64,000 nt of DNA from Linderina pennispora (taxonomy: Eukaryota > Kickxellomycota > Kickxellomycetes > Kickxellales > Kickxellaceae): the NCBI RefSeq assembly GCF_002104995.1, contig NW_024468259.1, forward strand, positions 708,782 to 772,781, read 5' to 3'. Below, one piece after another: positions 50,851 through 64,000 of this stretch. Position numbers and translations under genes: made by a program. Position 1 is the first letter of the stretch; each line of letters starts with the position of its first letter. The notes under the pieces were generated by a model. It did no database searches and was not told the origin of the DNA. It saw nothing but the letters and a program-made list of their open reading frames with translations.

Positions 50851-52040
50851 CTATTCACCATCGTTGTCTTCCCAGTATCGCATCAAGTCAGTGCCGGCAA
50901 AGTTCTTTGCAAGCACATTTTCATGCCTGTCACAGAGCTTATAGACTATGCCTATTCTCTGGACTACTTTGTATGGACTGCGTTGGCGTTCTGGTGCTTG
51001 AGCAATGTTGTGTGCAATTGGGTGAGCACAGGTGGTCACCAGCTCACCGAGTAAGAAGTAGTGCAGCGCTACAATGGCATTCGCATGCAGTCTTGCTTAT
51101 TACCATATGTGCTGTTGCTGCTGACATGCTCGCTGGTAAAGGTTATCAGCCAGCTCGTTAATCGTGTGCTGATTTCATTCGCTGAAGAACAGCTCAACTG
51201 GAGTATATCCAATTGTACTGTTGGGGGTGACAGCATTTGCAGCTACGATTCGGGCTGCATGATGCATCCATGAATTCTTGTGTGGATGCTGCAGCAAGAG
51301 CAGCCTCAGGGCACTTTTGAAGCATTTTACTGCAGTTTCGGCAATATTGGCTTGTAGATGGTATGTCGATGATGGGTTCCATGCAATGTCGTTACTCTGC
51401 AAAAAGTTGCAGAATTCAACACAGTCGAACTGGGGCCCATGATCTGAGGTCAAAATCCGGGGTCGGCCATATGCCTGGAACCAATTCATAGTGAGCACGT
51501 CGATGACATCACCTGCAGTAGTATTTGTCATCAGATAGACTTCAAAATACATACTTGCAGCATCGACAATGACCAATGCTTCACATTCAGGGTCGTTAGT
51601 TGGACCAACTATAAGCAGATCGATGTAGACTTGTTCCCGTGGAGTTGGCATCTGTGAAGGCACCATTACCATACTAGGCCATTGCTGAATCGCTGTCATC
51701 TGGCATTTGGTACAGCATTTGGTTACATCATTGACCAGTTTGGATAACTGGTGGTACCATATCCATCAGCGTACAAACCCATAGAGCCGCTTATACCATG
51801 GATGTGCCAATGCCATGTGTGCCACGGCTATGTACTCATGAGCTGCAGATTTTGTAAGTACTGGCGCTCATAGATCAGTACCACGTAGACTTCTGAGCTC
51901 AAAAAAATGGACAAGTACTCCATTTTGGAGTCCGTAATCAGCTGCTTCGTCCAAATACAGCTGGTCTGCATCCGTGCCTACTTGTGTTCGCTCTTCACAC
52001 ATACGCTGGATCATAAGGGGGAAATTGTCAGTGTGCTAGC
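50851..52040 (-). pseudogene. Ty3/gypsy integrase
   Basis: The N-terminal HHCC zinc region (HEYIAVAHMALAHPW then CCTKCQ) is at 51700-51840. The catalytic core 51175-51699 is one open frame: Asp in VYIDLLIVGP, Asp in ILTSDHGPQF, Glu in QANIAETAVK, the D-D-E set. The C-terminal domain at 50851-51039 reads RQRSPYKVVQRIGIVYKL and ends RYWEDNDGE. At least two stops separate the pieces. This is the integrase half of the split pol gene. Confidence 0.82.
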
Positions 52041-52719: not shown

Positions 52720-52722
52720 TAT
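52720..52722. repeat. 3-bp target duplication TAT (left)
   Basis: Matches TAT at 56861-56863, directly outside the other end of element 1. Inner repeat junctions show no such duplication. Confidence 0.8.
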
Positions 52723-53183
52723 GGGGGTCATTCCTGGACTTGTAAATTTTAGATATTTGCAATTTACTTAGTTAGATATTTGATTAATCGTTTTCAGAAC
52801 AGTTTTTTGCTACTAATTATTTTTATCATGGTTAATATTAATTATTGTGTCCAGAATGTTTCTGTGCTTATAATTGATTTTAAAAATATAAATATTTTTT
52901 TTGCCATTTCACCCAAACCGCCATCGGCATCTTGGAAAAGTTTCAGTGAACATAATTTCCTTGTGGTTGCTTAGCCACATCTATTGAGATATTGACTTTT
53001 GTTGCCCAATGATAATTAACCCCAAATATGCAAAGTTTTTCTTTCTGGTTGAAATTATGTTCACTGAAACTTTTCCAAGATGCCGATGGCGGTTTGGGTG
53101 AAATTTTTATTTCACTGAAATTGCCAATAGTTTCAATATGCACAAATAATTGTTGTGCAGATAACTATCTCTGAATGACCTCC
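52723..53183. repeat. Element 1 left terminal repeat (461 bp) with 54-bp palindrome arms
   Basis: Perfect inverted arms at 52906-52959 and 53051-53104 enclose a 91-nt loop (52960-53050) that reads CCTTGTGGTTGC... on the plus strand. It identifies as one unit with four other copies in the window. TCACTGAAA occurs in the right arm and again just outside it. It holds the presumed 3' end of the transposase transcript. Confidence 0.9.
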
Positions 53184-53244
53184 TTATTGAAGCATTTTCT
53201 ATCAATGCAAAATTCTTACTGAAAATTCTTATTTTAAAAGATGT

Positions 53245-54516
53245 TTATGACATGTCAACATAGAAGTTCATTGACTCATCAATTTTAGCTTGAATCAGTC
53301 TATCTTGTAGTTCTCTCATTGAAGCCTCTAACTCTACTTTTTGTGGTAAACTACTTCCAACTTCAGCATGTGTTGATCTCTCCTGATTGTTGCTTGGGTA
53401 GTCAAAGTTAGATAGAACCCAAAGTGTGTGGTGATGTTCAACAGGAACTTTACTAGCTGCTAGGATCTTCTTCATATTGTAGAGTAAGCAACAGAGTTTA
53501 AACTGCACATTGTACACAGTTGTGTTTCTAATTCTCACAACTTCTCTATTTGATAGTCTCTTAAATGTGTTACCTAGTTCTCCAAATGTGCTCTCAACCA
53601 TTGATCTAAATGACCCAAGTTTGCTATTATATTCTAACTCTGCCTCACTTAAGTTGGTTCCTCTTGGCTTTCTAACTGGTAAGCAAAAGTTATGCATTCC
53701 AAAATTTTCATTCTCTTCTGCTTCTGTTAACTCCTCCAGAATACTTTGAGGATAGCCACCATCTAACACAACACAATCTACTGGAGAGATATATTTCAAT
53801 AGTGACATGTTCTTAATCATCTTAGAGTCTGGGTGGTTTCTACATTCCTCAGTTGGTGAAACAAGGACAACCATTCCATTCAAATCAATGCAAACTTGTG
53901 TTCTATATCCTGACTTCTTCAACTTGAAGGAATAAAGATTTGGTTTGTAAGCACCATTATGTAGTGCTCGTGAGTCATGTCCATCTAACATAAGAGTAAT
54001 ATGCTTAAACCCTTTAGGATTCTGAATCTTTGCTGAGATCACTCGTAGTTCTGGAGTGGAGAACATTGTGTGCAAGTAGTGTGAAAGCTTCTTGTTCAAC
54101 TCACTTAACTCTGAGATATAGAACATATTATGAATCACTTGGTAGCTACTCTTAGGAATAAACCTTTCCATCTCATTGATTGATAGCCCAGCAACTAACT
54201 GGTACAAAATCAAGAGTCCTTTCTCAACATTTCTGTATGGACATGGATACTGCTTTCCACCAAACAACACATTTAAGAAGAAGAACACAGGGATCATTCC
54301 AAGTTGCTTAACAAGTGTATCTTTGATAAGCTTTATTTCTTTTACTTCATGAGCTTCACTCCTATAATACTTCTGCTGTTTATGCACTAACCAGTCGTCA
54401 TCAAGAAATCTCCACTTTGTTGTGTAGAGCACATTCCACTCCTTCTCTCTTAATTCTTGTAATTGATTATCCATCAGTGTGAGGTAGTCATAAATAAAAA
54501 TTTCAACTTTTATCAA
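53245..54516 (-). CDS. DDE transposase of element 1 (PIF/Harbinger/DDE_Tnp_4-like)
   Basis: 423 aa, intact. It carries a plausible D-D-E set at residues 178 (LMLDGHDSRA), 252 (CVVLDGGYP) and 308 (RSMVESTFGELGNTFKRL), the arrangement of the DDE_Tnp_4/IS5-Harbinger group; the last motif is typical of that group. The N-terminal 160 residues look like a helical DNA-binding part, and a Lys/Glu-rich helix ends the protein. A 3-bp target duplication also fits PIF/Harbinger, though those usually duplicate TWA. Its start is 9 bp from the divergent 79-aa gene. The copy in element 2 differs by only a handful of residues and is also open, which argues for function. Confidence 0.8.
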   Translation of the reverse strand: MIKVEIFIYDYLTLMDNQLQELREKEWNVLYTTKWRFLDDDWLVHKQQKYYRSEAHEVKEIKLIKDTLVKQLGMIPVFFFLNVLFGGKQYPCPYRNVEKGLLILYQLVAGLSINEMERFIPKSSYQVIHNMFYISELSELNKKLSHYLHTMFSTPELRVISAKIQNPKGFKHITLMLDGHDSRALHNGAYKPNLYSFKLKKSGYRTQVCIDLNGMVVLVSPTEECRNHPDSKMIKNMSLLKYISPVDCVVLDGGYPQSILEELTEAEENENFGMHNFCLPVRKPRGTNLSEAELEYNSKLGSFRSMVESTFGELGNTFKRLSNREVVRIRNTTVYNVQFKLCCLLYNMKKILAASKVPVEHHHTLWVLSNFDYPSNNQERSTHAEVGSSLPQKVELEASMRELQDRLIQAKIDESMNFYVDMS

Positions 54517-54525
54517 TTTTAGAAA

Positions 54526-54765
54526 ATGGGATCATTCCAGAACTTCTTCAAGCAACATTTAGCTGAGATGTGTGAGGAAGAAAGAAATATGCTTACTCTG
54601 CTACTTATTCATGATTTTAATATGAGTGATGACCTAGCAATACAAGTGCGTAATTGGATCCAACATATTGCTACTGATTGTGAGGTAAGGGTTGAACATG
54701 TGTATGATGTTTGTCATACTTTCCATAGAGATATGGAGAGAATGGTTGCTTATTCTTTGTTTTAA
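54526..54765 (+). CDS. 79-aa element protein (copy 1)
   Basis: Small protein MGSFQNFFKQHLAEM... with alternating acidic and hydrophobic helices and several His/Cys (VYDVCHTFHRD). No family recognised. It is divergent from the transposase (9 bp apart) and convergent with the 544-aa gene (8 bp apart). Element 2 has the same frame with five base changes in 240 (two silent, three replacing: N to D, S to T, L to M) and no indel. The start region GGGATCATTCCAGAAC resembles the element's outer end. Possible roles are DNA-binding cofactor or regulator; that is a guess from position. Confidence 0.65.
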   Translation: MGSFQNFFKQHLAEMCEEERNMLTLLLIHDFNMSDDLAIQVRNWIQHIATDCEVRVEHVYDVCHTFHRDMERMVAYSLF

Positions 54766-54773
54766 AATGGCTG

Positions 54774-56408
54774 CTATTCAACTGTGATTGTTCTATATCC
54801 TATACTTATAACTCTTAAGTAGCTTTGTTGCTTTGTTTCTCCTAACTGTTGAGAAATTGCTTTTCCAATTGAACTATCTGCTGGTGTCCTGATAAGAGTT
54901 GGCTGTTTATCTCTCCCTTTAATAATAATATCTAGATAGAAGTATGAATATCCTCTGAAAGTATGGAGTGCATAATGTGTAACTGTAAATTCATTACCTA
55001 ACTGAAGAACATTATAAGCAACTCTATATAATGATGGTTTCAGATCTGTATTCTCTTTGATATATATATGTCTAATTTCATCTAGTGTGATGCCTTCAAT
55101 TGCAGTTATTAGTGGATTGATATTTTGCTCATCTGCAGAATATTCAACCTCTGACATTTCTGATAGACATATCTTACTCTTTGCTTGCTTACTATCTATC
55201 CAACCAATATGCATTCCTTTGTAGTTAACTAATCCCATCTCTTCAAAAGTATGATACTGCTTAGTTATAGGATAAGTAGACCAGAAGGAGTTTCTCTGAC
55301 TTGGAACAATAGTTATATTCTCATCAACTCTTCTAAGAACTTTTTCTATTTCAAGACCACTCTCAAGTGAATCATATATTTGATAAAGTGTAGGTCTATT
55401 GTTGAATGAGAGATTAGCAACAACTACCATTGGATCTTCATTCTTAGTTAGCTTCTTAATAATTCCTTGCTTCTTTGATGTGATAGAGTTAAACCAATGA
55501 CAATATGCTAGAGTATGCTGTTGTCTCACATAAATACAAACTGTATAACAACTACTAACCTTATCAACAAGTGCCATCCACTGCTTTTCATAAGAAGTTG
55601 CAAATGTTCTGCATCCATTCATAAAGTCAAGTGTAGTAAGAAGCAAGTTACTATTCCATTCAACTGTTTGCATCTGAGAAGAATGTACAGTTAGTTCTAT
55701 CCTAGTCAAACCAGAGTTTCTACAAGCATACAATGTTTCTCCAAAGTTGTGCAAAGTTGGCATTACAAATTCTGAAAGTTTAGAACTAAGAGGATTACGA
55801 ACTTCACCACTCTCAAGAAGTTGAATAAACTTATTGTAAATTTTGTTCTTAACTTTAATATCTCCTTTCTTTGTGAACCAACTAATACAGTTAGAACCAG
55901 ACTTATGTAAATCATCAACTACATCTTTCTTTTCAATTCCTCTTTCTAAAAGGTATTTATAAATAATATTCCTAGAAGACACATTCTTACAATCCATTGT
56001 GATATCATAATTCTGTAAGTATATTTTGTGTTTAGCCATTGTAGCAAACTTCACTGTTAACAAAGAACTAACTATTGCAATGTTTGGTGTGGATACTTTG
56101 TAAATAGCAACTAGTCCATATTGTTCACTAATCTTGCTTCTAATATACTTATAGCCAAAACCTTCTCCAAATACTTTATGCAATCTAACACTAGCAGACT
56201 TCTGCTTTATCTTCATATCAGATTCAATGCATTTCTCAATAACAACCTCAACAATGAATGAGTCAACAAACATTTCAGAAGAATGCTCAAATCCAAGTTG
56301 CTCTATACCTCTAGCAGTATACCTAGCATCAGCAACATCAGGCATATTTCTTCTTTCTGACAACACTCTTGTTAGCAACACTCTTAGTTCACTTTGGAAG
56401 GGGGTCAT
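54774..56408 (-). CDS. 544-aa unknown element protein (copy 1)
   Basis: Large intact frame. Its ATG (56406-56408) is made by the first bases of the right terminal repeat (ATGACCCCC on the minus strand), so its promoter must lie in that repeat. No family recognised with confidence. The pattern DITMDC (135-140), KIYNK (189-193), LTRIELTVHSS (234-244) is reminiscent of replication-initiator proteins (a Tyr-Asn-Lys and R-x-E spacing), but this is weak. The rest is mixed alpha/beta with many Tyr and Ser. Element 2 encodes a near-identical protein, so it is under constraint or very recent. Confidence 0.7.
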   Translation of the reverse strand: MTPFQSELRVLLTRVLSERRNMPDVADARYTARGIEQLGFEHSSEMFVDSFIVEVVIEKCIESDMKIKQKSASVRLHKVFGEGFGYKYIRSKISEQYGLVAIYKVSTPNIAIVSSLLTVKFATMAKHKIYLQNYDITMDCKNVSSRNIIYKYLLERGIEKKDVVDDLHKSGSNCISWFTKKGDIKVKNKIYNKFIQLLESGEVRNPLSSKLSEFVMPTLHNFGETLYACRNSGLTRIELTVHSSQMQTVEWNSNLLLTTLDFMNGCRTFATSYEKQWMALVDKVSSCYTVCIYVRQQHTLAYCHWFNSITSKKQGIIKKLTKNEDPMVVVANLSFNNRPTLYQIYDSLESGLEIEKVLRRVDENITIVPSQRNSFWSTYPITKQYHTFEEMGLVNYKGMHIGWIDSKQAKSKICLSEMSEVEYSADEQNINPLITAIEGITLDEIRHIYIKENTDLKPSLYRVAYNVLQLGNEFTVTHYALHTFRGYSYFYLDIIIKGRDKQPTLIRTPADSSIGKAISQQLGETKQQSYLRVISIGYRTITVE

Positions 56409-56860
56409 TCCTGGACTTGTAAATTTTAGATATTTGCAATTTACTTAGTTAGATATTTGATTAATCATTTTCAGAACAGTTTTTTGCTACTAATTATTTT
56501 TATCATGGTTAATATTAATTATTGTGTCCAGAATGTTTCTGTGCTTATAATTGATTTTAAAAATATAAATATTTTTTTTGCCATTTCACCCAAACCGCCA
56601 TCGGCATCTTGGAAAAGTTTCAGTGAACATAATTTCCTTGTGGTTGCTTAGCCACATCTATTGAGATATTGACTTTTGTTGCCCAATGATAATTAACCCC
56701 AAATATGCAAAGTTTTTCTTTCTGGTTGAAATTATGTTCACTGAAACTTTTCCAAGATGCCGATGGCGGTTTGGGTGAAATTTTTATTTCACTGAAATTG
56801 CCAATAGTTTCAATATGCACAAATAATTGTTGTGCAGATAACTATCTCTGAATGACCTCC
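56400..56860. repeat. Element 1 right terminal repeat (461 bp)
   Basis: Direct copy of the left repeat with one difference (TCGT to TCAT near offset 68, a CpG transition). Arms 56583-56636 and 56728-56781, loop 56637-56727 in the same orientation as the left copy. It provides the start codon and presumably the promoter of the 544-aa gene. Confidence 0.9.
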
Positions 56861-56863
56861 TAT
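56861..56863. repeat. 3-bp target duplication TAT (right)
   Basis: Partner of 52720-52722. Confidence 0.8.
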
Positions 56864-57819
56864 GTAATATTGAGTTTCTCTCTGAAAGAACTTTTCTTTT
56901 TCCTTTTCCTTCATCAGTTTAACCACTTAGTATTTTCTCATTTCTTATTTACAAAACTTTGCATGTAATGCCTCAGTTTACTTCACTCACTATCCAAGGG
57001 GATGCTGACCTTTCAGCCCATCAAACTTCTTAGAGAAGAATGCTATAGGTGCCAAATCATCTTCATCAGGGGATATTTGTGTCAGCAATACTGCTCCCAT
57101 ACCAAGCTCTGATGCATCAGTCCGCAGTACTAGCAGAGCTCCAGGCTCAGGAATGTATAGTGTCTTGACATCAAGCAACACAGACTTGAGTTTATGCCAG
57201 GCTGGCTCCAAGTCATGTAACACCTTCTTCATGACCCATTTTGTGCTAGTATAAGCATGAAAAGGTGTAATCAGATGCTGAGTATGCAGTAGATGTTGAC
57301 CAACTGCTGTAACACTGCCACAAAGCTTGCAAATACCATGCTTTGTGGTTGGCATTGGTAAGTTGAACAGTGTTTCTATATAGTGGTCTGGAATCTTCCA
57401 GCTATGGTCTGCACTCTATATATATCCGAGTATCTTGACTTAGTCTGTAGCCACTAATACTGACTTGTCCATATTAATAAGCAGATTAACCTGTTCAAGT
57501 GCTCTGAACAGTGCATCTAAATTGGCTAGATGTGCATTGTAGTCTCCTGACACTAACTTCAAGTAGATGTTGTCAATGTATAAAAGCAACTTGCCTTTCA
57601 AGAATGGTGCATGTGATATGACAAACTCAATGAATGCTTGCGCTAATGCTGGTAACTCAGAGTTGCCTTAGACTAAACATGCTATCTCCACATATCCATG
57701 TTGCACCATATCATATGCCTATATATATTAAATCTCTGGTGATAGTCGGACTATAGTAAAAAAGGATGCCAAATCAATCAAACTAGTGATTTGGGTATCA
57801 TGCATAAAGGCTAGCACAT
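56864..57819 (-). pseudogene. Ty3/gypsy reverse transcriptase palm and RNase H start
   Basis: Right to left: SLIDLASFFTIVRLSPEI (RT block after the first insertion), the active-site block LLLYIDNIYLKL (57560-57590) where Asn replaces the second Asp of YIDD (codon 57569-57571), LLINMDKSVLV, then the RNase H start in 56990-57355 (LRTDASELGMGAVLLTQ and PIAFFSKKF). Stops and shifts separate them. Continues at 52720 and 61966 across the insertions. Confidence 0.8.
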
Positions 57820-57822
57820 CGT
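57820..57822. repeat. 3-bp target duplication CGT (left)
   Basis: Matches CGT at 61963-61965 outside the far end of element 2. Confidence 0.8.
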
Positions 57823-58284
57823 GGGGGTCATTCCTGGACTTGTAAATTTTAGTAAATTACAATTTTGTTAGATAGTTATTTGAATAATCGTTTTCAGAAC
57901 TATTTTTTGCTACTAGATATTTTTGTAACAGATATTTATAATTGTTGTGTCCAGAATGTTTTTGTGTGTATAATTGATTTTAAAAATACAAATATTTTTT
58001 TTGCCATTTCACCCAAACCGCCATCGGCATCTTGGAAAAGTTTCAGTGAACATAATTTCAACCAGAAAGAAAAACCTTTGCATATTTGGGGTTAATTATC
58101 ATTGGGCAACAAAAGTCAATATCTCAATAGATGTGGCTAAGCAACCACAAGGAAATTATGTTCACTGAAACTTTTCCAAGATGCCGATGGCGGTTTGGGT
58201 GAAATTTTTATTTCACTGAAATTGCCAATAGTTTAAACATGTATAAATAGTTGTTATGCAGATAACTAGCTCTGAATGACCTCC
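57823..58284. repeat. Element 2 left terminal repeat (462 bp), loop inverted
   Basis: Arms 58006-58059 and 58152-58205 are the same 54-bp sequence as in element 1, in the same relative orientation to the outer ends. The 92-nt loop (58060-58151) reads AACCAGAAAG..., the reverse complement of the element 1 loop plus one base. Flanks diverge (for example AGTAAATTACAATTTTG instead of AGATATTTGCAATTTAC). Confidence 0.9.
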
Positions 58285-58345
58285 TTATTGAAGCATTTTC
58301 TATCAATGCAAATTTCTTACTGAGAATTCCTATTTTAAAAGTTAC

Positions 58346-59617
58346 TTATGACATGTCTACATAGAAGTTCATTGACTCATCAATTTTAGCTTGAATCAGT
58401 CTATCTTGTAGTTCTCTCATTGAAGCTTCTAACTCTACTTTTTGTGGTAAAGTACTTCCAACTTCAGCATGTGTTGATCTCTCCTGGTTGTTGCTAGGGT
58501 AGTCAAAGTTAGATAGAACCCAAAGTGTGTGGTGATGTTCAACAGGAACTTTACTAGCTGCTAGGATCTTCTTCATATTGTAGAGTAAGCAACAGAGTTT
58601 AAACTGCACATTGTATACAGTTGTGTTTCTAATTCTCACAACTTCTCTATTTGATAGTCTCTTAAATGTGTTACCTAGTTCTCCAAATGTGCTCTCAACC
58701 ATTGATCTAAATGACCCAAGTTTGCTATTATATTCTAACTCTGCTTCACTTAAGTTGGTTCCTCTTGGCTTTCTAACTGGTAAGCAAAAGTTATGCATTC
58801 CAAAATTCTCATTCTCTTCTGCTTCTGTTAACTCTTCCAGAATACTTTGAGGATAACCACCATCTAAAACAACACAATCTACTGGAGAGATGTATTTCAA
58901 TAGTGACATATTCTTAATCATCTTAGAGTCTGGGTGGTCTTTACATTCCTCAGTTGGTGAAACAAGGACAACCATTCCATTCAAATCAATGCAAACTTGT
59001 GTTCTATATCCTGACTTCTTCAACTTGAAGGAATAAAGATTTGGTTTGTATGCACCATTATGTAGAGCTCGTGAGTCATGTCCATCTAACATAAGAGTTA
59101 TATGCTTAAAGTTTGTTGGATTCTGAATCTTTGCTGAGATCACTCTTAGTTCTGGAGTGGAGAACATTGTGTGCAAGTAGTGTGAAAGCTTCTTGTTCAA
59201 CTCACTTAACTCTGAGATATAGAACATATTATGAATTACTTGGTAGCTGCTCTTAGGAATAAACCTCTCCATCTCATTGATTGATAGCCCAGCAACTAAC
59301 TGGTACAAAATCAAGAGTCCTTTCTCAACATTTCTGTAAGGACATGGATACTGCTTTCCACCAAATAGAACATTTAAGAAGAAGAACACAGGGATCATTC
59401 CAAGTTGCTTTACAAGTGTATCTTTGATGAGCTTTATTTCTTTCACTTCATGAGCTTCACTCCTATAGTACTTCTGTTGTTTATGTACTAACCAGTCTTC
59501 ATCAAGAAATCTCCACTTTGTTGTGTAGAGCACATTCCACTCCTTCTCTCTTAATTCTTGTAATTGATTGTCCATCTGTGTGAGGTAGTCATAAATAAAA
59601 ATTTCAACTTTTATCAA
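58346..59617 (-). CDS. DDE transposase of element 2
   Basis: 423 aa, intact, same D178, D252 and E308. Compared with copy 1 it has about eight residue changes (for example NPKGF to NPTNF, EECRNH to EECKDH, SSLPQ to STLPQ), plus a number of silent third-position changes. No indels. It starts 9 bp from the divergent 79-aa gene, as in element 1. Confidence 0.8.
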   Translation of the reverse strand: MIKVEIFIYDYLTQMDNQLQELREKEWNVLYTTKWRFLDEDWLVHKQQKYYRSEAHEVKEIKLIKDTLVKQLGMIPVFFFLNVLFGGKQYPCPYRNVEKGLLILYQLVAGLSINEMERFIPKSSYQVIHNMFYISELSELNKKLSHYLHTMFSTPELRVISAKIQNPTNFKHITLMLDGHDSRALHNGAYKPNLYSFKLKKSGYRTQVCIDLNGMVVLVSPTEECKDHPDSKMIKNMSLLKYISPVDCVVLDGGYPQSILEELTEAEENENFGMHNFCLPVRKPRGTNLSEAELEYNSKLGSFRSMVESTFGELGNTFKRLSNREVVRIRNTTVYNVQFKLCCLLYNMKKILAASKVPVEHHHTLWVLSNFDYPSNNQERSTHAEVGSTLPQKVELEASMRELQDRLIQAKIDESMNFYVDMS

Positions 59618-59626
59618 TTTTAGAAA

Positions 59627-59866
59627 ATGGGATCATTCCAGAACTTCTTCAAGCAACATTTAGCTGAGATGTGTGAGGAAGAAAGAAATATGCTTACTCT
59701 GCTACTTATTCATGACTTTGATATGAGTGATGACTTAGCAATACAAGTGCGTAATTGGATCCAACATATTGCTACTGATTGTGAGGTAAGGGTTGAACAT
59801 GTGTATGATGTTTGTCATACTTTCCATAGAGATATGGAGAGAATGGTTGCTTATACTATGTTTTAA
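59627..59866 (+). CDS. 79-aa element protein (copy 2)
   Basis: Same frame as copy 1 with HDFDMSD instead of HDFNMSD and AYTMF at the end. Packed between the transposase and the 544-aa gene with gaps of 9 and 8 bp. Confidence 0.65.
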   Translation: MGSFQNFFKQHLAEMCEEERNMLTLLLIHDFDMSDDLAIQVRNWIQHIATDCEVRVEHVYDVCHTFHRDMERMVAYTMF

Positions 59867-59874
59867 AATGGCTG

Positions 59875-61509
59875 CTATTCAACTGTGATTGTTCTATATC
59901 CCACACTTATAACTCTTAGATATATTTGTTGCTTTCTTTCTCCTAACTGTTGAGAAATTGCTTTTCCAATAGAACTGTCAACTGGTGTCCTAATAAGAGT
60001 TGGCTGTTTATCTCTCCCTTTAATAAGAATATCAACATAGAAGTATGAATGTCCTCTAAAAGTATGGAGTGCATAATGTGTAGCTGTAAATTCATCACCT
60101 AACTGAAGAACATTGTAAGCAACTCTATACAATGAAGGTTTCAGATCTGTATTCTCTTTGATAAATATATGGCTAGTTTCATCAAGTGTGATATTGTCTA
60201 TTGCTGTTGTTAATGCATTGATGTTTTCCTCTTTTGCAGAATATTTATCCTCTGACATTTTTGATAGACATATCTTACTCTTTGCTTGCTTACTATCTAT
60301 CCAACCAATATGCATTCCTTTATAGTTAACTAATCCCATCTCTTCAAAAGTGTGATACTGCTTAGTTGTAGGATAAGTTGACCAGAAGGAGTTTCTCTGA
60401 CTTGGAACAATAGTTATATTCTCATCAACTCTTCTAAGAACTTTTTCTGTTTCAAGACCACTCTCAAGTGAATCATATATTTGATAAAGTGTAGGTCTGT
60501 TGTTGAATGAGAGATTAGCAACAACTACCATTGGATCATCATTCTTGTTTAGTTTCTTAATAATTCCTTGCTTCTTTGATGTGATAGAGTTAAACCAATG
60601 ACAATATGCTAGAGTATGCTGTTGTCTCACATAAATGCAAACTGTATAACAACTACTAACTTTATCAACAAGTGCTTTCCACTGCTTTTCATAAGAAGTT
60701 GCAAATGTTCTGCATTCATTCATAAACTGAACTGTGTTAAGAAGCAAGTTACTATTCCATTCAACTGTTTGCATCTGAGAAGAATGTACAGTTAGTTCTA
60801 TCCTAGTCAAACCAGAGTTTCTGCAAGCATACAATGTTTCTCCAAAGTTGTGCAAAGTTGGCATTACAAATTCAGAAAGTTTGGAACTAAGAGGATTACG
60901 AACTTCACCACTCTCAAGAAGCTGAATAAACTTGTTATAAATTTTGTTCTTAACTTTAACATCTCCTTTCTTTGTAAACCAGCTAATACAGTTAGAGCCA
61001 GACTTGTGTAAATCATCTACAACATCTTTCTTTTCAACTCCTCTTTCTAAAAGGTATTTATAGATAATATTTCTAGATGAGATATTCATACAATCCATTG
61101 TGATGTCATAATTCTGTAGAAATATTTTGTGATCAGCCATAGTAGCAAACTTCACTGTTAACAAAGAACTAGTTATTGCAATGTTTGGGGTAGATACTTT
61201 GTAAATAGCAACTGGTCCATATTGCTCACTAATCTTGCTTCTAACATACTTATAACCAAAACCTTCTCCAAATACTTTATGCAATCTAACACTAGCTGAC
61301 TTCTGCTTCACCTTTATATCTGATTCACTGCATTTCTCAACAACAACCTCAACAATGAATGAGTCAACAAATATTTCAGAAGAGTGCTTAAATCCAAGTT
61401 GCTCTACACCTCTAGCAGTATACCTAGCATCAGCAACATCAGGCATATTTCTTCTTTCTGACAACACTCTTGTTAGTAATGCTCTTAGTTCACTTTGGAA
61501 GGGGGTCAT
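59875..61509 (-). CDS. 544-aa unknown element protein (copy 2)
   Basis: Same length as copy 1 and open throughout. Scattered substitutions, for example AKHKIYLQ to ADHKIFLQ and a cluster around residues 425-450 (EVEYSADEQN to EDKYSAKEEN), with the central block DLHKSGSNCISWFTKKGD unchanged. The start codon is again formed by the edge of the right terminal repeat (61507-61509). Function unknown. Confidence 0.7.
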   Translation of the reverse strand: MTPFQSELRALLTRVLSERRNMPDVADARYTARGVEQLGFKHSSEIFVDSFIVEVVVEKCSESDIKVKQKSASVRLHKVFGEGFGYKYVRSKISEQYGPVAIYKVSTPNIAITSSLLTVKFATMADHKIFLQNYDITMDCMNISSRNIIYKYLLERGVEKKDVVDDLHKSGSNCISWFTKKGDVKVKNKIYNKFIQLLESGEVRNPLSSKLSEFVMPTLHNFGETLYACRNSGLTRIELTVHSSQMQTVEWNSNLLLNTVQFMNECRTFATSYEKQWKALVDKVSSCYTVCIYVRQQHTLAYCHWFNSITSKKQGIIKKLNKNDDPMVVVANLSFNNRPTLYQIYDSLESGLETEKVLRRVDENITIVPSQRNSFWSTYPTTKQYHTFEEMGLVNYKGMHIGWIDSKQAKSKICLSKMSEDKYSAKEENINALTTAIDNITLDETSHIFIKENTDLKPSLYRVAYNVLQLGDEFTATHYALHTFRGHSYFYVDILIKGRDKQPTLIRTPVDSSIGKAISQQLGERKQQIYLRVISVGYRTITVE

Positions 61510-61962
61510 TCCTGGACTTGTAAATTTTAGTAAATTACAATTTTGTTAGATAGTTATTTGAATAATCGTTTTCAGAACTATTTTTTGCTACTAGATATTT
61601 TTGTAACAGATATTTATAATTGTTGTGTCCAGAATGTTTTTGTGTGTATAATTGATTTTAAAAATACAAATATTTTTTTTGCCATTTCACCCAAACCGCC
61701 ATCGGCATCTTGGAAAAGTTTCAGTGAACATAATTTCAACCAGAAAGAAAAACCTTTGCATATTTGGGGTTAATTATCATTGGGCAACAAAAGTCAATAT
61801 CTCAATAGATGTGGCTAAGCAACCACAAGGAAATTATGTTCACTGAAACTTTTCCAAGATGCCGATGGCGGTTTGGGTGAAATTTTTATTTCACTGAAAT
61901 TGCCAATAGTTTAAACATGTATAAATAGTTGTTATGCAGATAACTAGCTCTGAATGACCTCC
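61501..61962. repeat. Element 2 right terminal repeat (462 bp)
   Basis: I find no difference from the left copy. Arms 61684-61737 and 61830-61883; loop 61738-61829 in the inverted orientation. Confidence 0.9.
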
Positions 61963-61965
61963 CGT
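61963..61965. repeat. 3-bp target duplication CGT (right)
   Basis: Partner of 57820-57822. Sequence on either side joins into continuous gypsy RT coding. Confidence 0.8.
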
Positions 61966-62600: not shown

Positions 62601-63061
62601 GGGGGTCATTCCTGGACTTGTAAATTTTAGATATTTGCAATTTACTTAGTTAGATATTTGATTAATTGTTTTCAGAACAGTTTTTTGCTAGTAATTATTT
62701 TTATCATAGTTAATATTAATTATTGTGTCCAGAATATTTCTGTGCTTATAATTGATTTTAAAAATACAAATATTTTTTTTGCCATTTCACCCAAACTGCC
62801 ATTGGCATCTTGGAAAAGTTTCAGTGAACATAATTTCCTTGTGGTTGCTTAGCCACATCTATTGAGATATTGACTTTTGTTGCCCAATGATAATTAACCC
62901 TAAATATGCAAAGTTTTTCTTTCTGGTTGAAATTATGTTCACTGAAACTTTTCTAAGATGCCGATGGTGGTTTGGGTGAAATTTTTATTTCACTGAAATT
63001 GCCAATAGTTCCAGCATGCATAAATAGTTAATGGGCAGATAAGTATCTCTGCATAACCCCC
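62601..63061. repeat. Solo terminal repeat (461 bp), older copy
   Basis: Same unit as the element 1 repeat, loop in the element 1 orientation (62838-62928), arms 62784-62837 and 62929-62982. The arms now differ at four positions, all transitions and three at former CpG sites. The outer right end is altered (GCATAACCCCC). Flanking triplets TTT and TGT could be a decayed target duplication. No element genes adjoin it. Confidence 0.85.
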
Positions 63062-63216: not shown

Positions 63217-64000
63217 TGAGAGAGGGGTTTAGAAAAAGGGGTTTAGAGGGGTTTAGAAAAGAGGGGTTTAGAAAAGAGGGGTTTAGAAGAGGGGTTTAGA
63301 AAGAGGGGTTTAGAAAAGGGGTTTAGAAAAGAGGGGTTTAGAAAGGGGTTAGAAAGAGGGGTTTAGAAAGAGGGGTTTAGAAAGAAGGGGTTTAGAAAGG
63401 GGTTTAGAAAAGAGGGGTTTAGAAAAGAGGGGTTTAGAAAGAGGGGTTAGAAGGGGTTTAGAAAGAGGGGTTTAGAAAGAGGGGTTTAGAAAGAGGGGTT
63501 TAGAAAGAGGGGTTTAGAAAGAGGGGTTTAGAAAGAGGGGTTTAGAAAGAGGGGTTTAGAAAGAGGGGTTTAGAAAGAGGGGTTTAGAAAGAGGGGTTTA
63601 GAAAGAGGGTTTAGAAAAGAGGGGTTTAGAAAGAGGGGTTTAGAAAGAGGGGTTTAGAAAGAGGGGTTTAGAAAAGAGAGGGGTTTAGAAAGAGGGGTTT
63701 AGAAAGAGGGGGTTTAGAAAGAGGGGTTTAGAAAGAGGGGTTTAGAAAGAGGGGTTTAGAAAGAGAGAGGGGTTTAGAAAGAAGAGGGGTTTAGAAAGAG
63801 GAGGGGTTTAGAAAGAGGGGTTTAGAAAGAGGGGTTTAGAAAGAGGGTTAGAAAGAGGGGTTTAGAAAAGAGGGGTTTAGAAAAGAGGGGTTTAGAAAGA
63901 GGGGGTTTAGAAAGAGGGGTTTAGAAAAAGAGGGGGGGGGGTTTAGAAAGAGGGGGTTAGAAAAGGGGGGTTTTAAGAAAAAGGAAGGGTTTAGGAAAGA
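63217..64000 (+). repeat. 14-bp G-rich minisatellite GAGGGGTTTAGAAA, to the window edge
   Basis: About 55 tandem units of AGAGGGGTTTAGAA with small length variants (AGAAAAG, AGAAGAG, GGGTTAG). A GGGG run recurs roughly every 14 nt on the plus strand. The last ~80 bp become irregular with long G runs. It resembles a subtelomeric satellite; it is not a TTAGGG array. Confidence 0.9.

Follow-up and report, generated by a model that had tools for sequence, protein, structure and literature searches.

Structure of the two elements

The window analysed here is a stretch of 64,000 nucleotides from the kickxellalean fungus Linderina pennispora (contig NW_024468259.1, positions 708,782 to 772,781 of the forward strand), in which two related DDE transposons were found, each consisting of an internal region (INT) between two long direct repeats (R). 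Positions given below without a contig are those of the window. Element 1 (R-INT-R, 52723–56860) opens with a left repeat of 461 bp (52723–53183, + strand), followed by genes for a DDE transposase of 423 aa (53245–54516, − strand), for the conserved 79-aa protein P79 on the strand opposite to the transposase (54526–54765, + strand) and for the 544-aa protein P544, which is Rep_trans-like by predicted fold and signature (54774–56408, − strand), and closes with a right repeat of 461 bp (56400–56860, + strand). Element 2 (R-INT-R, 57823–61962) is built in the same way, with repeats of 462 bp (57823–58284 and 61501–61962, both + strand) around its own 423-aa DDE transposase (58346–59617, − strand), 79-aa protein (59627–59866, + strand) and 544-aa protein (59875–61509, − strand). 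The initial annotation had listed a DDE transposase and two other proteins and no reverse transcriptase; the 544-aa and 79-aa proteins proved to be real, and a search of all three element proteins turned up no reverse transcriptase domain.

R of both elements begins with GGGGGTCATTC, ends with GAATGACCTCC and has its own imperfect terminal inverted repeat (TIR) of ~11 bp with GG..CC ends. Within each R, 54-bp inverted arms enclose a loop of 91 bp in element 1 (modules at 52906–53104, + strand, with the loop in orientation A, and 56583–56781) or 92 bp in element 2 (58006–58205, with the loop in orientation B, and 61684–61883). As had been claimed, target-site duplications (TSDs) flank the whole unit: the unstranded 3-mers TAT (52720–52722 and 56861–56863) and CGT (57820–57822 and 61963–61965) lie outside elements 1 and 2, respectively, whereas the inner repeat flanks, TTA and GAA, do not match.

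The two repeats of element 1, spaced 3677 bp apart, show 1 mismatch over 461 bp (460/461), and those of element 2, spaced 3678 bp apart, show none over 462 bp (462/462), in agreement with the identities first reported. Divergence between the two pairs was likewise borne out: 33 of 262 flank positions differ (26/183 to the left of the hairpin and 7/79 to the right), and the loop is inverted in the repeats of element 2 relative to those of element 1.

Left and right repeats pair by copy

Further copies were collected by DNA searches of the genome (26.17 Mb, 222 contigs), for which the best 40 of 180 and 40 of 183 candidates were scored; genome counts are thus lower bounds. The loci retrieved yielded 96 full-length repeats, comprising 33 left, 31 right, 29 solo and 3 classed as 'middle' by the flank rule, one of which is cut by a contig end. 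Twenty-three pairs of this family (family 1) were made automatically and 21 were used, the pair C144_17604/C144_22738 being excluded because it spans another left repeat and C133_9191/C133_12869 because it is cut by a contig end. Outer 3-bp TSDs match in 16 of the 21 pairs, whereas 20,000 shuffles gave 2.3 matches on average and never more than 9; the matched TSDs are mixed in sequence (e.g. TCA, ATA, CAT, TAT, CGT, ATC, AGA, TGC and TAA).

For haplotype comparison, loops were turned to one orientation and 56 diagnostic columns were scored. Left and right repeats carried the same haplotype in 16/21 pairs (0–1 of 56 columns different). These homogeneous pairs fall into five haplotypes (a, 1 pair; b, 9; c, 3; d, 2; f, 1) that differ from each other at 4–38 diagnostic columns. 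The summed left–right distance was 0.333, compared with a mean of 0.970 and a minimum of 0.572 in 20,000 permutations. A tree of left and right repeats across copies had been suggested as the check, with pairing within copies predicted and separate clustering of left repeats as the contrary outcome. In a tree of the 42 repeats (22 of them different), left joins right by lineage for the 16 pairs, and no left or right clade was seen. INT tracks the same lineages in the 11 compared (9 of the 22 listed pairs were without a retrieved INT): copies with haplotype b differ by 0–1 over 3216 bp, d copies by 2, c copies by 1 or by 25–26, and a and b by 162–163. The left and right repeats thus did not diverge separately along these lineages.

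Five pairs are heterogeneous, with 22 (C101), 11 (C157:1114229), 5 plus 10 gap positions (C196), 59 (C201) and 33 (C44) mismatches, and these are the older ones. The C101 repeats have a matching TSD yet are each closest to a different haplotype, which shows recombination or conversion to be at work as well. Private single differences are preserved in four of the near-identical pairs (C1, C13, C157 and C212). Because pairing follows copy or lineage and not side, a single repeat probably gave rise to both at, or close to, each transposition, which is what template copying or passage through a one-repeat circle predicts. Copying from a template, or homogenisation through a circle, as originally proposed, is therefore supported by the 16 pairs and the tree, the five older pairs not being homogeneous.

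An invariant, invertible hairpin

Across seven haplotypes, comparison of 199 positions of the arm–loop–arm module with haplotype a revealed no substitutions, one-base differences in loop length (e.g. 91 versus 92 bp) being kept outside this count. By comparison, the flanks differ from haplotype a at 18–26 of 182–183 sites on the left (up to 14%) and at 0–14 of 79 on the right. When all aligned copies were taken together, decayed and solo ones included, 17–20% of module columns varied in at least two copies, versus 28% of flank columns; since the module varies once these copies are included, the constraint is a property of propagating copies. Among these copies, 115 one-arm differences and 16 two-arm differences with the same change were counted, many of them in CpG; the repeat C133_12869, which is cut and has a misread arm, contributes 7 of the 115 and was omitted from the alignment. 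In solo and old copies the arms have decayed mainly by C-to-T and G-to-A changes at CpG positions, a pattern that cytosine methylation of silenced copies would be expected to produce.

Loop orientation had been noted as a difference between copies. It does distinguish elements 1 and 2 but is not a trait of copies, since in 4 of the 16 near-identical pairs the left and right repeats have loops of opposite orientation. Under random assortment, four or fewer discordant pairs would arise with a probability of 0.038. Loop flipping thus outpaces substitution, and pairs are nevertheless more alike in orientation than random. A further haplotype, g, is a mosaic of an exact c left flank (0/183) and an exact a right flank (0/79), with its junction inside the invariant module.

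The element proteins

The transposase (D178, D252, E308) matched PF13359 with E values of 7.8e-15 and 1e-13 in the two copies and gave a weak match to an IS5 model; its sequence points to an IS5/Harbinger-like enzyme. No C-x-x-C occurs anywhere in it, and the zinc-finger motifs of the Kolobok transposase, the second of which is CCHC, are absent. Many of its relatives, including named ones in Mortierellales, carry a chromodomain. On sequence grounds the element is placed near the PIF/Harbinger-ISL2EU-Spy (PHIS) transposons, outside any named group because its matched TSDs are mixed and do not follow the pattern of any one of them (TWA, AT, none, ANT, CWG or TNA). P79 is conserved between families, at about 43–61% over full-length matches. 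Between elements 1 and 2, dN/dS was 0.064 for the transposase, 0.229 for P544 and 0.319 for the 79-aa protein (in which only 5 differences were available); P544 is under purifying selection.

The right repeat contains the start codon of P544 in its first nine bases and therefore probably supplies the P544 promoter. In the predicted model, P544 seems to adopt a TBP-like fold, which aligned with RepSTK1, a rolling-circle initiator of the Rep_trans type. The reference active-site residues of these initiators, R/K-x-Y-x-K-x-x-E/Q and three acidic metal ligands, were taken from PMC4797284. In P544, K-x-Y-x-K-x-x-Q and the acidic signature are invariant in 18 sequences, and D49 is present in all 17 with a residue at that position. 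The PF02486 profile matched neither P544 nor anything in the L. pennispora genome; for lack of that match to P544, the protein is described as working like Rep_trans and is not filed as a member. The predicted model and the motif together thus suggest a Rep_trans-like fold and active site. Staphylococcal Rep entries were not among the best 50 fold matches listed for P544, which excludes nothing.

Searches with P544 against Pfam, PHROGs, NCBIfam and PDB sequences returned weak, scattered matches, none of them meaningful, and neither P544 nor P79 matched any Pfam family. A profile search recovered the same 16 relatives and two fragments, none with a listed Pfam domain. Relatives occur in Linderina (L. 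pennispora proteins 97% and 52% identical) and in Actinomortierella, and two scans of viral contigs gave 14 and 97 pattern matches, none of which was confirmed as a relative. Relatives P0004–P0011 and P0013–P0016 lie on short contigs (about 2–6 kb), some of them near one-circle size.

Solo, tandem and nested forms

Seventeen of the 29 solo repeats have their own 3-bp TSD, against 2.0 expected and 8 at most in shuffles. A fifth repeat in the window is a solo R (62601–63061, + strand; hairpin module 62784–62982), 95% identical to the element 1 repeat, whose flanking 3-mers, TTT and TGT, do not match. A tandem R-INT-R-INT-R (5513/9191/12869) reaches the contig end at C133, and at the end of C1 an R-INT-R is followed by further INT sequence. 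INT ends adjoin repeat ends in 74/74 cases (69 full repeats and 5 interrupted or cut ones), and no one-repeat copies (R-INT or INT-R) were seen among these 74 ends, a biased sample in that some loci were picked for holding repeats. Two insertions are nested in hairpin arms of family-1 repeats: a family-2 element (TSD AGT; C2:361161-365875, L016) and a solo repeat of family 1 itself (TSD TGA; C157:155772-156696, L066). For both, the uninterrupted arm is known and can be read as the empty site, which supports the 3-bp TSD.

Same-orientation repeat pairs just 942 and 714 bp apart were noted at C157:164149-165552 (L068) and C157:178053-179227 (L069), possibly short or nested copies; both L068 repeats carry the mosaic haplotype g. 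In the window, frames resembling Ty3/gypsy integrase and RNase H-like pol pieces, judged by eye, lie at 51175–51699 and 56990–57355 (both − strand), flanking and separating elements 1 and 2, as they would if a single retroelement had received both insertions. A minisatellite with a 14-bp period (63233–63963) adjoins the solo repeat at the contig end.

Related families

A second family encodes a 547-aa protein 51–56% identical to P544 and a transposase ~75% identical to that of family 1. From a longer match list, the 21 repeats with a GGAGATCAG start were used; these repeats are 397 bp long and have arms of 60/61 bp around an invertible loop of 46 bp. Mismatches in five pairs number 0, 0, 1, 0 and 8; three of the pairs have matching TSDs and two have discordant loops. 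The hairpin stem core can be aligned between families 1 and 2, and the flanks yield an AT-rich match and a terminal match only. One repeat, C24_727197, is 'left' under the loose flank rule but resembles a solo repeat with TSD ATA. The right part of the family-2 repeat is also found in another type of repeat, which has a longer TIR (GGAGGTCATTCAC...; e.g. C212:208697, C212:209772, C35:4593 and C79:229865), and P79 relatives of about 61% identity are also present; together these probably represent a third family.

A proposed transposition cycle and its alternatives

On rolling-circle plasmids with two origins, and in tandem geminivirus constructs, replication that starts at one origin and stops at the other frees a circle; with an origin in each direct repeat, such a circle would have one repeat. 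By cointegrate logic, replicative insertion of a one-repeat circle through its repeat ends would yield R-INT-R with identical repeats and an outer TSD. We propose that the elements represent a composite-like DDE DNA transposon that has been active recently and whose lineages go through a single-R form, and give this explanation a probability of roughly 45%. P544 would nick at the hairpin of R, and replication from one R to the hairpin of the other would free a circle of INT and one R while the donor stays in place. The IS5/Harbinger-like transposase would then join both ends of the circle's R to the target with a 3-bp stagger, and, as when a cointegrate forms, replication or repair through R would restore an R-INT-R unit whose two repeats are identical and whose TSD lies outside. 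Recombination between repeats would give solo R and tandem arrays, and hairpin processing or arm recombination would flip the loop. Such a cycle would account for the within-copy identity, the placement of the TSDs, the tandem arrays, the invariant hairpin and the mosaic joined in the hairpin. The anatomy, TSDs, within-copy homogeneity, hairpin constraint, selection on the genes and solo and tandem forms are observed; the nicking, the circle and the replicative insertion are inferred.

Chief among the alternatives is cut-and-paste movement of R-INT-R in the manner of the animal transposon KolobokP (PMC9587614), with the transposase cutting any two R ends and P544 serving as a DNA-binding helper and not as a replicator; the repeats would be kept alike by gene conversion, by unequal sister crossing-over or by homologous insertion of recombination-born circles into solo R. 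We regard this as a serious contender, though with the balance against it. KolobokP shares the layout, the solo repeats and the multimers, and such routes have been proposed for it; recombination is evident in heterogeneous pairs with matching TSDs (C101, C196 and C201) and in mosaic g; tandem arrays exist at C133 and C1; and TBP-fold chains rank above Rep_trans in the fold comparison of P544. All of these points favour this alternative. Homogeneity is complete in 16/16 near-identical pairs of five haplotypes, however, so that conversion would have to outrun every fixed substitution; in the partly preselected loci, 0/74 INT ends lack an adjoining repeat end, whereas 46 one-repeat copies and 90 monomers are described for KolobokP-4N1_CorFlu; and the invariant hairpin and the active-site signature of P544 are left unexplained.

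An origin in two steps was judged improbable. Here R would be a miniature inverted-repeat transposable element, mobilised by the transposase in trans, that came by chance to flank the genes in direct orientation; insertion would proceed through the outermost ends, and circles of R and INT would insert as IS26-type translocatable units, a comparison drawn in the KolobokP paper, with no dedicated replicator. The TIRs that R itself carries and the solo repeats with TSDs of their own suit this account, but families whose P544 proteins are 53% identical share the plan, hairpin core included, so the arrangement is not a one-off, and the purifying selection on P544 also speaks against it. Collapse or copying of near-identical repeats of a young family during assembly is very improbable: the b copies of INT are indeed almost identical and several elements lie at contig ends, but copies with haplotypes a, c, d and f, though distinct from b, are internally homogeneous, the private differences of four pairs are retained, and loops are discordant between otherwise identical left and right repeats. 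Least probable of all is reverse transcription by enzymes that retrotransposons supply in trans. The LTR (long terminal repeat)-like layout and the surrounding Ty3/gypsy-like frames could be cited for it; against it stand the ends of R, which are the TIRs of a DDE element with its transposase inside, the 3-bp TSDs and the loop flips. Reverse transcription by the element itself was rejected, as its proteins include no reverse transcriptase.

Comparison with known systems

Contrary to the initial annotation, which knew of no described family with this layout, animal KolobokP has it (Kojima and Bao 2022, PMC9587614), and in the literature searched that paper alone names KolobokP and combines terms for such a layout. 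KolobokP, a DDE transposon known from seven animal phyla, is bounded by long terminal direct repeats of ~450 bp that include short TIRs; it has TSDs and occurs as solo repeats and multimers too. The present element shares internal genes between such repeats (here 461/462 bp), RR..YY ends (here GG..CC), TSDs of 3–5 bp round the unit (here 3 bp), solo repeats, (R-INT)n-R multimers, and a DDE transposase with a partner protein on the other strand. It differs in its transposase, which matches PF13359/IS5 and not Kolobok and is set apart by domain models and motif description; in its partners, P544 and P79 in place of a His-Me finger nuclease, which some KolobokP families are noted to lack; in its fungal host; in the absence of one-repeat copies from those seen here; and in the invertible hairpin of R, the words hairpin and stem-loop being absent from PMC9587614. 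Filing the element under KolobokP was rejected because transposase and partner protein differ. No description of the present element was found among the papers listed in the literature searched, most subscription papers and Repbase lying outside its coverage. The layout is thus already known, whereas the partner P544 is possibly unprecedented; new here are the invertible hairpin in each repeat and, from modelling and motif, a 544-aa protein with a Rep_trans-like predicted fold and signature.

With PHIS transposons (PMC4482050) the element shares the PF13359 DDE domain, short TIRs starting with G and a 3-bp TSD; it differs in its long direct repeats, in TSDs without a TWA, ANT, CWG or TNA pattern, and in a second protein without a recognised Myb/SANT domain. 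Like the Rep_trans initiators (pT181 Reps, RepSTK1; PMC4797284) and archaeal Rep-Arvir (PMC13107129), P544 has the active-site signature and, as its model suggests, may have a TBP-like fold, and the presumed origin contains a hairpin and a near-palindromic core; it differs in having no PF02486 match, a eukaryotic host and a linked DDE transposase, and its nicking activity is putative. IS26 translocatable units and pseudo-composite transposons, which are treated in PMC9587614, insert as one-repeat circles to give repeat–body–repeat with the TSD outside, in the way proposed for the present element, but here the transposase lies outside the repeat, the host is a eukaryote and a dedicated replicator is presumed.

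That the KolobokP-type layout recurs with a second transposase group in another kingdom suggests that it has a function, and the conserved, invertible hairpin and Rep_trans-like partner suggest that this function could be to provide two origins for copying out as a circle. If so, plasmid rolling-circle replication would be linked to DDE transposition, Rep_trans-type enzymes would gain a eukaryotic branch, and one could test by what means a DNA transposon, with no reverse transcription, prevents its two long direct repeats from diverging; several copies are 0–1 bp apart over 3.2 kb and so look young enough for experiments. LTR retrotransposons also have direct repeats identical within copies, solo repeats, tandem arrays and a gene start at the repeat, but between the repeats here there is no reverse transcriptase/integrase polyprotein, and the repeats carry TIRs and an invertible hairpin. 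Tentatively, and with the odds somewhat against us, we suggest a class of eukaryotic transposon in which a plasmid-type, Rep_trans-like, non-HUH initiator is joined to a DDE transposase, two repeats act as two origins, a one-repeat circle is copied out and two repeats are rebuilt at insertion; such a class would include the first Rep_trans-like protein outside bacteria and archaea, judging by PMC13107129, and its cycle would parallel that of LTR elements with DNA alone.

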